Assembly: GCA_937873695.1 (NCBI GenBank)
Contig: CALMYL010000018.1
Span: 1-64,000, forward strand
Direction of reading: 5' to 3'
Length of the DNA stretch: 64,000 bases
Origin: an uncultured Ignavibacteria bacterium
Lineage (GTDB): Bacteria > Bacteroidota > Ignavibacteria > Tepidaquicellales > OLB5
A program made the position numbers and the translations under genes. Shown here in pieces: positions 29,603 through 40,100 of the stretch; the stretch's first letter is position 1, and each line of letters opens with the position of its first letter. The notes under the pieces are model-generated. The model saw only the letters and a list, made by a program, of their open reading frames with translations, was not told the DNA's origin and ran no database searches.

Positions 29603-30928
29603 TTACTTTATTAGCAGCATCTTAATCGTATTTGAGTACATTCCGGATACCAGCTTCGCAAAATATGTACCGCTTGGCTTATTTTCTGCGTTCCATTGAA
29701 GTGAGTAATCACCACTCCCCAATTCACCTGCAAATATATCATCAACTTTTCTTCCCATGATATCATAGACTATCAAAGACGTATATACTTTATTTAGATT
29801 GCCAGATGCAATTGAAAAATTAATTGTTGTTACCGGATTAAACGGATTAGGATAATTCTGTTTGATTGAAAATCCATCAGGAATATTATTGCCTGTCTGT
29901 ACAATTCCGGTAATGCCGGTCATTGTATCTGTAAGTATATTCACTGTGTTTGAATTGGCGCTGCGGTTTGATGTTCCCGTAGCACTTACAAACTTCCATA
30001 TGTTTCCGATGTGCACACTTGCCGCTCCGTGATCGGTCTTAGGCGCAAGCAGTGTTGGCTGCGGGGTCCATGTATTCGCTCCCGGTGAATAAACATAACA
30101 CTGGTTTGTGACAGATGACACCTGGTATCCGCCACTTACAATCACGCCTTTGTTTCCCCATGTTGCGCCGTAAATTGAATTCCTGACACCTGCCGGGTAA
30201 ACTGCCCCGCTGGAATCCCATGTAATAACGCTGCGGTCACTTTGGCTGATAACACCGCGGAAAACTGAGTTAGTTGCTGCAGGATTTGTCCAGTTTGGAC
30301 CACCGCAAACATAAACCAGCGTATCACCGGCAGCGGCAAGAACACCGCCGCACCTTGGAGCAGGCATACTGCTTGCAGGACGCCATGTGTTGCTGTTTGA
30401 GTTATACAGGTAAACATCGTTATATACTGTACCGCTAGGGAAACCCCAGCCTCCTGCACAGTAAAGCAGGCTATCCTGGTAAACAGTCACAGAATGGAAC
30501 ACTCTGCCGTAAGGCATATTTGCGCCATCTGACCATGTATTGGTCGCTAAATTATATATTTTAACCCTTGGTGTGCATTCATTTAAAGCAAGCGTATATG
30601 TACCGCCAAGACTGTATAGCTTATTGCCCATTACGGCAGCTGCGCTTATCCAGTAATTCCCGTCAGGAAAGTTGGTTAAAGTACTCCATGAATCAGCCAA
30701 AACGTTATACCTGTAAACAGTATTTGTGATGGCGTTTCCATCCTGCAGGCCGCCCAATACATAAACCCAGGCTGAATCATTTGCGGAATATCCCGCTGCA
30801 CCGGGGTATCTTACCCCAGTTGTTATCGGTGTACCTGATGTCATTAATGGAATGTATGGCGAGTAGTTCTGAGTAAAAAGACTTCCAGAAAGTATCGCAA
30901 GCAGTATCAATAAGTATAATTTTTTCAT
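29603..30928 (-). CDS. Secreted Kelch-repeat protein with T9SS sorting domain
   Basis: The 441-aa protein has a signal peptide (1-19) and at least five Kelch-type blades recognisable by the double glycine after aromatic/hydrophobic residues: YVLGGLQDGN, YSLGGTYT, YCAGGWGFP, YVCGGPNW, IVSGGYQV. They form a beta-propeller. From about residue 358 there is a T9SS C-terminal domain (NYPNPFNP..LIVYDIMGRKV..SGTYFAKL..KMLLIK). It is expected at the cell surface or in the medium; ligand unknown. Confidence 0.88.
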   Translation of the reverse strand: MKKLYLLILLAILSGSLFTQNYSPYIPLMTSGTPITTGVRYPGAAGYSANDSAWVYVLGGLQDGNAITNTVYRYNVLADSWSTLTNFPDGNYWISAAAVMGNKLYSLGGTYTLALNECTPRVKIYNLATNTWSDGANMPYGRVFHSVTVYQDSLLYCAGGWGFPSGTVYNDVYLYNSNSNTWRPASSMPAPRCGGVLAAAGDTLVYVCGGPNWTNPAATNSVFRGVISQSDRSVITWDSSGAVYPAGVRNSIYGATWGNKGVIVSGGYQVSSVTNQCYVYSPGANTWTPQPTLLAPKTDHGAASVHIGNIWKFVSATGTSNRSANSNTVNILTDTMTGITGIVQTGNNIPDGFSIKQNYPNPFNPVTTINFSIASGNLNKVYTSLIVYDIMGRKVDDIFAGELGSGDYSLQWNAENKPSGTYFAKLVSGMYSNTIKMLLIK

Positions 30929-31652: not shown

Positions 31653-33395
31653 CTATTTAGTCAATACCAGTTTTACAGTTTTAGTAAAATTACCCGCAGT
31701 CAATTTTGCGAAGTAAGTACCGCTGGGCATAAAACCGGGATTCCATTCCGCTTCATATGAACCGGCTGAAATACTGCCTTTAAAGAGCTCTGCAACCTGC
31801 CTGCCGCGAATATCAAATATTTTCAGCGAAGCATTATCAGCAACACGCTCGGGGATATCAAACTTGATCTTTGTAGAAGGATTGAACGGATTCGGGTAGT
31901 TTTGATGCAATTCAAAACTGCGCGGCACTTCAGCGCCAATCTGCTGAATGCCTATAGGATCAATGATCTCAAAATTCAGCATCATTCCGTCATCTTCATG
32001 CTCAAGATTATGGCAATGGAAAAGATATAGTCCTTTATGATCAGTGAACTTCACCAGAACTTCAACTATTTCACCCGGACTTAAATTAACCGTATCTTTC
32101 CATCCTTTATCTGATGGCGGGAGATTCGTGCTGTTATTACGTGAAAGTACCTGCCACTGCGCCTCATGTGTATGCATCGGGTGGTAATCGGCCGTTTGGT
32201 TTGTTATCTTCCATTTTTCAAGTGAATGCAACGGAGTTTCCCAGTCAATTCTGTTTATATCAAAGGTCAGACCGTTAATTTTATGCATCGGGTGAGAGCC
32301 GCCCATGGTGAGAGTAAATGTTCTGGATGTTACAACTTCCGAAGGATCATAATAGCTGATTGGATCGAATGCCGAAGGCACAGTACCGCCCGAGGTGCTG
32401 TTATTGGTAATATCAAACCTGATGATATCAAGAGCTATACCCTGTTTGTAAGGAAGGGTGCCGCCGAAAGTGAATGCCAGAGATCTTAAAGTAACATCGG
32501 TACCTATTGTATCAGCTGAAAAATCTACAAGAATTTCAACTCTTTCACCCGGTGCAAGATTGAACTGAGTTGCCGTAACCGGTGCATCTTTTAAGCCGCC
32601 ATCAGTCGCAATAATACTGAATGATCTGTTATCTGAAAAAGCAATCCTGTATACTCGCGCGTTTGACCCGTTAAGAAGCCTGAATCTGTAAAGCGTTCTT
32701 CCTACTTCAAAATAAGCATCGGGAGTGCCGTTTACAAGTACAGTATCACCAAGATATCCCCAGGTCTGCTCTGGAGAGCCGGGATTATATGTAAAATTGG
32801 GAATATCTGCGGTCCTTCTATCCTGGATACACAACGGTACATCATATGCCCCTGATGGCAGATTATAATTTTCAGCCGGGTCACGGACGATAAAAAATCC
32901 TGCAAATCCACGGTACACCTGTTTAGCCGTAAGCATATCAGCGTGCGCATGGTAGAAATATGTTCCTCCCCTGTTTATTACGGGGAAAGTATATGTGAAA
33001 GAGGAACCGGGGTTTATTGCATCCCTTGGGTGACCATCCATGTTAGCAGGTGCGCTTACACCGTGCCAGTGAGTAGTTATAACTTCATTTAGATTATTAA
33101 TTACATTAGCAGTAAAGGTCTGGCCCTTATCAATTACAACACTAGGACCCGGGTATGAACCATTGATTGTTACAAGCTGTGTATCTTGTCCCGGCCAAAC
33201 CTGCTCGGTAGTTTCTGCAAGCGTCATATTCCCGCCATTGGTAAATACCGGAGGAAACCTTAGCGGGTTCCCCGCGCCCAGAACTTCGGTCAAAACAGCG
33301 TTCTTTTTCTCATTTGCAAATATTTGCAAAGGTTTTGGAATTGTTAATAACGCTCCTGCTGCAAGCGTCTTTATCAACATATCTCTTCTTTTCAT
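31653..33395 (-). CDS. Multicopper oxidase with Tat-like signal and T9SS sorting domain
   Basis: The 580-aa protein begins MKRRDMLIKTLAAGALL, a twin-arginine-type signal. The body has three cupredoxin domains with all copper motifs: THWHG (about 110), FYHAHAD, HPMHTHEAQW and LYLFHCHNLEHEDDGMM, whose Met would be the axial type 1 ligand. It couples oxidation of a metal, phenol or other substrate to reduction of O2 to water. From about residue 499 there is a T9SS C-terminal domain (NYPNPFNPSTKIKF..SGTYFAKL). It would therefore cross the inner membrane folded and the outer membrane by T9SS. CotA/CueO-like specificity is not resolvable. Confidence 0.92.
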   Translation of the reverse strand: MKRRDMLIKTLAAGALLTIPKPLQIFANEKKNAVLTEVLGAGNPLRFPPVFTNGGNMTLAETTEQVWPGQDTQLVTINGSYPGPSVVIDKGQTFTANVINNLNEVITTHWHGVSAPANMDGHPRDAINPGSSFTYTFPVINRGGTYFYHAHADMLTAKQVYRGFAGFFIVRDPAENYNLPSGAYDVPLCIQDRRTADIPNFTYNPGSPEQTWGYLGDTVLVNGTPDAYFEVGRTLYRFRLLNGSNARVYRIAFSDNRSFSIIATDGGLKDAPVTATQFNLAPGERVEILVDFSADTIGTDVTLRSLAFTFGGTLPYKQGIALDIIRFDITNNSTSGGTVPSAFDPISYYDPSEVVTSRTFTLTMGGSHPMHKINGLTFDINRIDWETPLHSLEKWKITNQTADYHPMHTHEAQWQVLSRNNSTNLPPSDKGWKDTVNLSPGEIVEVLVKFTDHKGLYLFHCHNLEHEDDGMMLNFEIIDPIGIQQIGAEVPRSFELHQNYPNPFNPSTKIKFDIPERVADNASLKIFDIRGRQVAELFKGSISAGSYEAEWNPGFMPSGTYFAKLTAGNFTKTVKLVLTK

Positions 33396-33578: not shown

Positions 33579-34790
33579 ATGAAATCCTTCAAAAGCTGCA
33601 GTATTATTATTTGTTTTACTTTACATCTGATTTCTGGTAACGTTAAATCTGATTGGATACAAGTATCTAATGGAATTACACAGTTAAATATTAATGATCT
33701 AACAGTTACGGGAAATTATATTTTTGCTGCAACAAATGTAACTGTATCGGGTGGTGGTGTCTTTAGATCTTCAAATAACGGAAATAGTTGGGAACAAGTA
33801 TACTTTACTACTACTTTGTCTTTGGCTTCTTTTGATAGTTTTGTATATCGGGGTTATCAGAATGGTTTTAGTTATTCGTCAAATTATGGTACGAACTGGA
33901 TAACTCCCGGCGGAGCCAGCAGGTGGATTACAGCTTTATTGGCTGATGGAAATTATGTTTATTCTGGATGTTATACACCAACAATTACAACTAATAGAGG
34001 AGTTTGGATTTCATCAAATAATGGCTCGAATTGGCAACAAACATCTTTAAATAATGCCAATATTTATTCGTTAACTAAAAGCAATAATTTTTTATTTGCT
34101 GGAGGAAATGGACTGTTTGTCTCGACAGATAATGGGATTTATTGGAATCTATCATTGTCAACTTCTGTTTGGGCTTTGAGCTCAAATGAGAGTAAGATTT
34201 TTGCCGGCATAGATGGCTCGCCATATGGAGTCTATAAATCTACAAATTATGGAAATAATTGGGTTTTGACATCTTTGAATGTCGGTACTCATGCATTACT
34301 ATCAAATTCAAATTACATAATTGCTGGTACAGGGAATGGAATTTATGTTTCAAATGATGATGGAAGTAATTGGATTTATCGTAATGAAGGAATGGGACCT
34401 TATTGGTTTACTTCTTTATCAATCATTAATAATTATTTGATTGCTGGAACAGATGGAAATGGTGTCTGGCGTAGACCTTTAAGTGAAGTAGTAAGTATAA
34501 AAACAATTTCAACAAATATTCCATTAAAATATGAACTCTACCAAAATTATCCTAACCCCTTTAATCCAATAACAAAAGTAAAGTTCAAAGTTCCGCTAAG
34601 AAGTTTTATACAGATCATAATTTATGATATTCTTGGCAGGGAAAAAGAAAAATTAGTTAATCAAGAATTAAGTGCTTCAGAATACGAAACCACCTTTGAT
34701 GGTTCAGATTATTCAAGCGGGGTTTACTTTTATCAATTAATTTCAAATGGTAAAAAAATTGACACTAAAAAGTTTATGATTTCAAAATAA
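33579..34790 (+). CDS. Secreted BNR/Ycf48-like beta-propeller protein with T9SS sorting domain
   Basis: The 403-aa protein has a signal peptide (about 1-24) and repeated propeller signatures of the form S(T)(N/D)NGxxW: SSNNGNSWEQV, SSNYGTNWIT, SSNNGSNWQQT, STDNGIYWNL, STNYGNNWVL, SNDDGSNWIY. The T9SS C-terminal domain starts near residue 324 (NYPNPFNPITKVKF..SGVYFYQL). The gene is visibly richer in A+T than its neighbours (many AAT, TTA and ATT codons), hinting at a different history. Function unknown. Confidence 0.85.
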   Translation: MKSFKSCSIIICFTLHLISGNVKSDWIQVSNGITQLNINDLTVTGNYIFAATNVTVSGGGVFRSSNNGNSWEQVYFTTTLSLASFDSFVYRGYQNGFSYSSNYGTNWITPGGASRWITALLADGNYVYSGCYTPTITTNRGVWISSNNGSNWQQTSLNNANIYSLTKSNNFLFAGGNGLFVSTDNGIYWNLSLSTSVWALSSNESKIFAGIDGSPYGVYKSTNYGNNWVLTSLNVGTHALLSNSNYIIAGTGNGIYVSNDDGSNWIYRNEGMGPYWFTSLSIINNYLIAGTDGNGVWRRPLSEVVSIKTISTNIPLKYELYQNYPNPFNPITKVKFKVPLRSFIQIIIYDILGREKEKLVNQELSASEYETTFDGSDYSSGVYFYQLISNGKKIDTKKFMISK

Positions 34791-37104: not shown

Positions 37105-40100
37105 TTATGCTTCTTTGCCGTGGCAATTTTTGTACTTCTTGCCGCTGCCGCATGGACAGGGGTCGTTTCTGCCGACCTTGGGTCCGACCTTAATCGGTAT
37201 TTTCTTCGTATCATTCGGCTGACCCTGCATATTATCTGACTGTTCCGGGGTCATTTTCATACCTACACCTTCAGCGCTTTGTTTTATTGTAGTCATTCTC
37301 TGCGGCAAACGCTGCCTTTGTACAGGCGCTTCTACCTTCTGTTCCTGTGTAGTGAACTTAAACACAAAGTTTATCACATCCTTGCTGATATCTTCAAGCA
37401 TTTGAACAAATAAACCAAAGCCATCCTTCTTGTATTCAATCAACGGATCTTTCTGACCATATGCACGGAAATTGATACCTTCTTTGAGGTCATCCATTTC
37501 ACGCAAATGCTCTTTCCATTTATCGTCAATTACTGTGAGCATTGCAAATCTTTCGATCTGTGCTATCAGATCAACACCGTATTTTTCTTCTTTGCGCGAA
37601 TAGTTTTCATGAACGAGCTTCATTATATAATCTTCAACACCCTTTTCACCAAGTCTCTGGAATTCATCAGGGCTGACTTCCATCAGGACGGTAAATGTCC
37701 TCTGTATCTCATCCCTTAAGCCTTCATAATCAGCTTCAGGGTAATATTTTTTCACTGTATTTTCGACATATGAACCGGCCATATCAAAAATTTCATCTTT
37801 GATACGCTCACCCATTAATGCCTGGCGGCGCCTGTCGTAAATAACTTCGCGCTGCTGGTTCATAACGTTATCGTACTCAAGCAGCCTTTTACGTATACCG
37901 AAGTTATTTTCTTCAACTTTCTTCTGCGCGCGCTCAACAGAGCTTGTTATCATTGAGTGCTCAATAGCTTCGCCTTCTTCAATTCCAAGCTTTTCCATAA
38001 CCCGCGAAATTCTCTCGCTGCCAAAGAGCCTCATAAGGTCATCTTCGAGTGATAAAAAGAATTTCGATGAACCGGGGTCACCCTGTCTGCCTGCACGTCC
38101 CCTAAGCTGTCTATCAATACGCCTTGCTTCGTGACGTTCTGTACCAATTATGTGCAGGCCGCCCAGGTCAGCAACGCCGGGTCCGAGTTTTATATCAGTT
38201 CCTCTGCCCGCCATGTTGGTTGCAATTGTTACAGCGCTTTTTAAACCCGCATTCTGAACAATTGATGCTTCGCGCTGATGCTGCTTTGCGTTGAGCACTT
38301 CATGGGCAACCTGCTTGCGTTTAAGCATTCTGCTTAAGGTTTCAGATACTTCAACAGAAGTTGTACCAACAAGTACGGGTCTGCCGATCTTCTTCATCTG
38401 CTCAATTTCGGCAATTACAGCATTATATTTTTCACGTTTGGTTTTGTAAACAACATCGTTCATATCATCGCGAATGCAGTCGCGGTTTGTTGGTATTACA
38501 ACAACATCAAGTTTATAAATATCCAGGAACTCACCCGCTTCAGTTTCAGCGGTACCTGTCATACCTGCAAGCTTTTTGTATAGCCTGAAGTAATTTTGAA
38601 GTGTAATGGTTGCAAGAGTTTGTGTATCTTTTTCAACGTGAACGCCTTCTTTAGCTTCAATAGCCTGGTGAAGCCCTTCGGAGTATCTTCTTCCGGGCAG
38701 TACACGGCCGGTGAATTCATCTACAATCATGATCTTGTTATCCTGTATAACATACTCAACATCATTTTCGTACAGCGAATATGCTCTTAGCAGCTGCTGT
38801 ACAGTGTGAATTCTATCACTTCTTAATGAATATAATTCACCTAATGCGTCTTTTTTAGCAACTTTTTCAGCTTCGCTCATTGTATCATCATTTTCTAGAT
38901 GCGCGATTTCTGTGCCCATATCAGGCAGAACAAAGAAATCCTTGTCTTCCTGGGCTGATGTCAGAAACTCCCGCCCTTTTTCTGTGAGATCAATAGAATG
39001 CGCCTTTTCATCAATAGCAAAATACATTACATCATCAATTTCGGGCATTCGTTTGGCGTTATCCCGTAAAAACTCAATTTCCGTCTGCTGCATCAAAGTT
39101 TTGTTTGAAGGCTCTGAAAATAATTTCAGCAGTTTTTTATTTTTCGGGAAGCCGCGGTTAGCTCTTAAAAGAGCAACACCGGCTTCGTGAACTTCTTCCT
39201 TAGAAGCAGCTGAGCCTTTATTGATAATTGTTTCCGCTTCGCCAACAAATTTAGCAATCAGACTTTTCTGAGCATCAACAAGACGTTTAACGCGCGGATT
39301 CATTTCATCGAACTTATGTTCGCTCATTTCTACCGCACCTGAAATAATAAGCGGGGTTCTGGCTTCATCAATAAGCACTGAATCAACTTCATCCACAATT
39401 GCATAATTGTGCCCGCGCTGAACCATGAATTTTTTGTCGACAACCATATTATCTCTAAGGTAATCAAACCCGAATTCATTATTTGTACCGTAAACAATAT
39501 CACAAGCGTAAGCATCGCGGCGTTTATCATTATCCATATCATTAAGTATAACACCAACTGTTAAACCATGAAACTTGAATATCTCGCCCATCCATTCACT
39601 GTCACGTTTAGCTAGGTAATCGTTAACGGTAATAATGTGAACACCTTTGCCCGGCAGCGCATTCAGAAACTGCGGCAGTGTACCCACAAGTGTTTTACCT
39701 TCGCCTGTTGCCATCTCAGCAATTTTACCCTGGTGAAGCACCATACCGCCAATGAGCTGTACATCAAACGGTATCATATCCCACTGCACTCTTTGTCCGG
39801 CAGCAAGCCACTCTTTACCGCATAGCCTGCGGCATGTATCCTTAACTACTGCAAAAGCCTGCGGCAGTATTTCATTCAGAGTATCTTCAATGATATCATC
39901 ACGTTCATTCTCTGTCTTTTCCAGTTCGTCATATATTTCTTTTCTTTCATCGTGAGAAATATCATTGGTAAGCTTTGAGCGCAATTCAACAATTTTATCT
40001 TCATGCTCCTGAGTATTTTTGCGGATGAGTTCTTTGAACTCTGCGGTTTTACCTCTTAATTCATCATCACTCAAAGACGCAAGCTCTTTGTAGTGCTCAT

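Follow-up and report, generated by a model that had tools for sequence, protein, structure and literature searches.

A conserved pairing of a twin-arginine signal and a T9SS sorting domain in an Ignavibacteria-type multicopper oxidase

The 64,000-nucleotide stretch of DNA analysed here (the window) encodes a multicopper oxidase with a signal at each end, a twin-arginine signal at the N-terminus and a T9SS sorting domain at the C-terminus. The sequence-only reading of this DNA had named both, down to the motif RRDMLIK, and both are there: the motif spans residues 3-9, and the domain scores above the TIGR04183 and Pfam cut-offs. The two signals are conserved jointly in a well-supported clade of relatives, and the machineries for both are encoded in the same genome. 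Because the arginine pair is conserved, the hydrophobic core of the signal is weak, the sorting domain is conserved and both machineries are encoded, we regard Tat followed by T9SS as the best-supported reading of how the oxidase is exported, and probably the right one. See Table 1 for the coordinates of all features.

Table 1. Features of the oxidase locus, in window positions
Feature	Positions	Strand	Basis
Multicopper oxidase gene, 580 aa	31653..33395	-	ORF, Pfam, NCBIfam; best solved relative 8z59 by sequence and fold
N-terminal signal peptide, residues 1-27	33315..33395	-	Sequence read by eye; model low-confidence at residues 14-40
Twin-arginine codons R3 R4 (AGA AGA)	33384..33389	-	Invariant in 25/25 relatives; 14 codon pairs
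First cupredoxin domain, Cu-oxidase_3, residues 69-174, with H109, H111, H149, H151	32874..33191	-	Pfam, alignment
Second cupredoxin domain, Cu-oxidase, residues 212-294	32514..32762	-	Pfam
Third cupredoxin domain, Cu-oxidase_2, residues 360-477, with H405, H408, H410, H460, C461, H462, H466	31965..32318	-	Pfam, alignment
T9SS type-A sorting domain, residues 500-577	31665..31898	-	TIGR04183, Por_Secre_tail; beta strands 496-578 in model
Terminator-like inverted repeat, CTTCAAAAGTC TAAAT GACTTTTGAAG, then T8, directly past the stop codon	31590..31624	-	Sequence read by eye

The enzyme and its N-terminal signal

The open reading frame is intact and starts with ATG. Its product resembles laccase and CueO: a multicopper oxidase with three domains, from an Ignavibacteria-type bacterium, in which PF07732, PF00394 and PF07731 all score above their cut-offs. 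The ten histidines and one cysteine listed in Table 1 are invariant in 25/25 aligned rows. We take these residues to be the copper ligands known for the family, and judged from the alignment the oxidase carries the full set. An AlphaFold2 model built from 20 sequences has a mean pLDDT of 81.9, with low confidence in the signal (residues 14-40) and in a linker (residues 482-492), beyond which the C-terminus forms an all-beta unit. The best Foldseek matches of the model in the PDB are multicopper oxidases, headed by the Sulfurimonas oxidase 8z59 (TM 0.93 by target length), which is the closest solved chain by both sequence and fold. CueO structures are also among the best matches. The oxidase shares its three cupredoxin domains and full ligand set with CueO and CutO, which are Tat-exported and periplasmic, and its N-terminus aligns with the CueO model NF008205 from model residue 1, at 305.1 bits against a cut-off of 525 that it does not reach. 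The sorting domain sets it apart from CueO and CutO.

The N-terminus reads MKRRDMLIKTLAAGALLTIPKPLQIFA, followed by NE past the putative cleavage point, which the motif places after A27. R3 and R4 are kept by every aligned relative, at 39-92% identity to the window oxidase, and the codons that encode them make use of all six arginine codons. The pair stays constant while its codons change; therefore, conservation acts at the level of the protein. This bears on the alternative that the oxidase is an ordinary T9SS cargo entering by Sec, with the arginines doing no more than supplying the positive charge of the n-region in a Sec signal that is somewhat weak. For Sec, charge suffices and exchange of lysine and arginine would be expected, yet the pair is retained throughout, and we consider this alternative unlikely. 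Chance occurrence of the pair was rejected, as RR falls within the first 20 residues in 3/149 T9SS-domain proteins of the same genome as against 25/25 oxidase relatives. A wrong start codon was also rejected, as the ATG lies immediately 5' of KRR and relatives begin at the same site, with TTG or GTG at that position in L034, L035 and L112. Orthologues in other assemblies, 88% and 92% identical, bear both signals, and an assembly artefact was rejected on this ground.

We compared the signal with those of the other T9SS cargoes of the genome, using the 149 readable N-termini among 150 TIGR04183 matches listed (one was dropped). Only one of them matches RRx[FLMIV][ILVMFA], and it has a strongly hydrophobic Sec-like stretch. 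The best 11-residue Kyte-Doolittle mean is 1.76 +- 0.21 in the clade with both signals (n=25) and 1.55-2.17 in six further Tat signals from this genome, as against 2.84 +- 0.40 in the 149 cargoes, whose start codons were chosen so as to favour hydrophobic stretches. The window signal, at 1.83, lies at the low end of the cargoes, only 3/149 being as low, which also speaks against a Sec signal. The hydrophobic core is thus weak, resembling the Tat signals of the genome and not its other T9SS cargoes, and it occurs together with RRx and two hydrophobic residues near the N-terminus. That the other examined cargoes look Sec-like is, on the other hand, a point in favour of the Sec alternative.

General Tat models fail to recognise the window signal, which favours Sec as well. 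It was not listed even at E 10 in a TIGR01409 search of the genome, and when TIGR01409 and PF10518 were run on N-terminal 45-mers, each matched 5/25 clade rows and neither matched the window's own. The NCBIfam Tat profile matched 0/8 N-termini of Sec oxidases. A matrix was also trained on Tat signals, 17 in all, from the genome and its class. Taking the 95th percentile of the cargoes (n=149) as threshold, 25/26 group rows and 0/8 Sec oxidases exceed it, and only 14/26 rows pass when the RR columns are removed. The window scores 4.48, above 146/149 cargoes (3/149 score as high), and left-out true Tat signals all score above it, at 16.9-54.0. The matrix tells clade members and Sec oxidases apart, without placing the former among strong Tat signals. 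Such an intermediate score would suit a precursor that takes Tat or Sec, whichever is available, a possibility that we hold to be very remote, as the constancy of RR speaks for a need for Tat. Most Tat signals have phenylalanine at +3, and most of the core clade has methionine in its place. The window signal appears, in short, to be Tat-like and conserved, yet not a textbook Tat signal.

Sorting domain, export machineries and relatives

TIGR04183 matches the window oxidase at 41.4 bits against a cut-off of 23, and Por_Secre_tail (PF18962) matches residues 500-577 at 32.1 bits against 27. TIGR04183 also matches 23/25 aligned relatives, and the motifs YPNPFN and SGxY are retained in most of the core clade. 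The window assembly (G000) spans 3.78 Mb in 30 contigs. Its one TatC lies on contig C5 and its one TatA-type protein on C17, and the window lies on C18, in agreement with the earlier remark that the window holds no tat genes. SprA and PorU are likewise encoded in G000 outside the window. Of the genomes with an oxidase of this family, 20 were tested, and all 20 encode both TatC and PorU. Furthermore, the window's genome relies heavily on the T9SS, since it yields at least 150 TIGR04183 matches, with 150 of 330 candidates scored.

These observations weigh on a further alternative, in which the oxidase leaves the cytoplasm by Tat and then goes no further than the periplasm or the outer membrane's inner face, its C-terminal domain a passive beta-sandwich or unused. 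Weak, divergent tails in three proteins outside the core clade (L037, L039 and L119) and two near rows with a Tat signal and no sorting domain (L114 and L116) would be in keeping with it. We think it quite improbable, given the score of the domain in the window oxidase, its presence and motifs in the relatives, and the presence of PorU and SprA in the genome.

A search for relatives in 296 genomes of the phylum yielded 47 oxidases (E <= 1e-60) from 39 of them, and we inspected the ends of all 47. In seven, a twin-arginine signal is combined with a tail like the sorting domain (L032, which is the window itself, L033, L034, L035, L037, L039 and L040), though this tail is weak in L037 and L039. 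Nine have a Sec-like signal and a sorting domain (L061, L074, L075, L077, L080, L081, L084, L085 and L086; L084 runs off its stretch). Two have a sorting domain and no readable signal (L036/L093 and L038/L092). The remaining 29/47 have no sorting domain, and in most of them a lipobox cysteine comes after RR or RK. Named genome contigs were also scanned, and 80 loci were kept; of these, 20 (L094-L112 and L115), nearly all from Ignavibacteria, encode an oxidase of the window's type with a sorting domain. RR is present in every readable N-terminus among them (19 of the 20 loci, 20 proteins, L108 having two).

Some of these genes are unusual in themselves. L108 (2297-6084) is a tandem pair of oxidases, each bearing RR as well as a sorting domain, and the first has ~90 extra residues ahead of its sorting domain. 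The oxidase of L036/L093 (G062:C107) is broken, its frame lost, with three TGA and one TAA within the matched stretch. That of L038/L092 (5747-6958, G236:C1) is truncated, with neither first domain nor signal and with an N-terminus like a heavy-metal-associated domain; it adjoins genes that look like RND efflux genes, and its genome consists of one contig.

An unrooted tree of 63 rows was built from 436 columns that cover only the catalytic core. All 26 of the 26 rows with a Tat signal and a sorting domain fall in one group, interrupted only by L118, a verrucomicrobial oxidase that lacks the domain. Within it, 22 of these rows, the window included, form the core clade with support of 100/100. 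Nine Sec-type oxidases with a sorting domain, all from this phylum (L061, L074, L075, L077, L080, L081, L085, L086 and L155), form a separate clade, also at 100/100; they share the enzyme family and the kind of C-terminal domain with the window oxidase, unlike it in their Sec-like signal, and their existence is a point for the Sec alternative. RR is also present in the near rows L114 and L116, which lack the domain, and three changes in possession of the domain are required on the tree. The simplest story would be that the oxidase was first exported by Tat and later gained its sorting domain, an order that rests on an unrooted tree.

Among 24 lipobox relatives without a sorting domain that were chosen for the tree, RR is retained in just 12; the rest have RK, RN, RQ, RI or none of these. 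Such replacements are frequent in the lipobox oxidases of Bacteroidota (L043, L046, L079, L134, L156, L157 and others), which may be exported by Tat or by Sec. One of the genomes concerned, G089, with the RK oxidase L043, does encode TatC.

The proposed route and other exported proteins

PhoX and PhoD are families known for Tat export, and we examined both in the same class. In PhoX, 10/28 rows have a Tat signal, 15/28 a sorting domain and 0/28 both. In PhoD, for which we used 30 out of some 110 matches, 1/30 have a Tat signal, 18/30 a sorting domain and 0/30 both, so that the two signals coincide in 0/58 rows. The sorting-domain model used for these counts was rebuilt from first-pass tails and is therefore permissive; the rows leave out L270 and L289, for which a wrong reading frame had been picked, count L286 and L290 from one gene, and in a few cases run off the locus edge. 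One PhoD protein, L317, was flagged by regular expression as having both signals and was rejected, as its RR sits past a typical Sec signal; counted by regular expression alone, PhoD would have two Tat signals and one protein with both. The PhoX proteins of the class are of two kinds, one Sec-like with the domain (L273, L274, L277, L278 and L288) and one with a Tat signal and no domain (L261-L269 and L271). One PhoX that combines a Sec-like signal with a sorting domain (L273, G000:C7:189457-190737) comes from the genome of the window itself. That genome has eight TIGR01409 matches, none of them with a sorting domain; L066 was examined together with its downstream neighbour, a separate ORF.

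Since PhoX and PhoD never have both signals, other proteins that acquired the domain bear Sec-like signals, and it is the oxidase clade that retained RR. On this comparison of sequences the pairing looks unusual. The same result counts against Tat followed by T9SS, as does the failure of general Tat profiles to find the window signal: one could argue from PhoX and PhoD that the two machineries do not combine, and the uniformly Sec-like signals of the PhoX and PhoD proteins with sorting domains lend weight to the Sec alternative.

In the Tat-then-T9SS reading that we prefer, the precursor would fold in the cytoplasm and cross the inner membrane by Tat, as its signal suggests. Copper would probably be put in within the periplasm, by analogy with CueO and CutO as treated in portions of PMC8456105 and PMC6708511. 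The T9SS would then recognise the sorting domain and pass the folded enzyme through SprA to the surface or the outside, as the domain and the homology of the machinery indicate, and PorU, again by homology, would cleave the domain off.

The sequence-only reading had proposed this two-step route for a folded, copper-loaded enzyme. The route is supported by the conserved RR, the weak core, the sorting domain and the machineries, but the copper loading is probably wrong, because E. coli CueO can cross Tat without its copper according to the relevant passages of PMC8456105 and PMC6708511, which describe Stolle et al. 2016. The same passages report a signal-less cytoplasmic variant of CueO that lacks copper and into which copper can be inserted afterwards.

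Sec is given as the inner-membrane step of T9SS cargo in the reviews PMC9127263, PMC9251779 and PMC5449463, and a figure legend in the last has the Tat route "for T2SS only". Excerpts from PMC9251779 describe T9SS transport of folded cargo via SprA, and an excerpt from PMC4804311 describes how GFP was secreted once fused to the final 22 residues of a sorting domain. The window oxidase has in common with T9SS type-A cargoes (gingipains, RgpB CTD) a C-terminal sorting domain above the curated cut-off and T9SS genes in its genome, but the described type-A cargoes reach the periplasm by Sec (PMC9127263 and PMC9251779, in part), in contrast to its Tat-type signal. Tat followed by T2SS, as outlined in part of PMC5449463, is also a two-step route in which Tat hands a folded protein to an outer-membrane machine; the second machine is the T2SS, where we propose the T9SS for the window oxidase. 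We found no report of a Tat-dependent T9SS cargo in open-licence PMC papers, which is weak evidence of absence. Each signal is already known, and their conserved pairing is not described in the open-licence literature searched.

With somewhat less assurance, we favour a broader claim, that the Ignavibacteria-type oxidase clade would be obligately exported by Tat and then T9SS. Such a relay would lie outside the described entry routes of the T9SS, form an exception to the either-or rule of PhoX and PhoD, and mean that cargo folded before it reaches the periplasm is accepted. If a Tat-delivered protein is secreted, the T9SS needs no Sec-coupled step. Uptake of pre-folded cargo is hard to probe with Sec cargo, which arrives unfolded, and a natural Tat-type cargo makes it testable. 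The pairing could also serve as a natural part for the display of cytoplasm-folding enzymes on Bacteroidota-type bacteria, and it indicates which Ignavibacteria oxidases may act outside the cell.

Gene neighbourhood

The neighbourhood of the oxidase gene hints at metals, with protein families named by eye. An RND membrane-fusion-like protein is encoded nearby in 10/20 loci, an RND-pump-like protein in 6/20 and a P-type-ATPase-like protein in two (L107 and L110). In L104, a CxxC metal-binding-like lipoprotein is encoded immediately upstream of the oxidase.

In the window, two further sorting-domain proteins flank the oxidase, one with Sortilin/Vps10-like repeats (33579-34790, +) and one with Kelch repeats (29603-30928, -); proteins similar to the latter occur near the oxidase in 4/20 loci. 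A few kb away, an ORF (37108-37998, -) ends in what we take to be a likeness of the C-terminal zinc motif of SecA.
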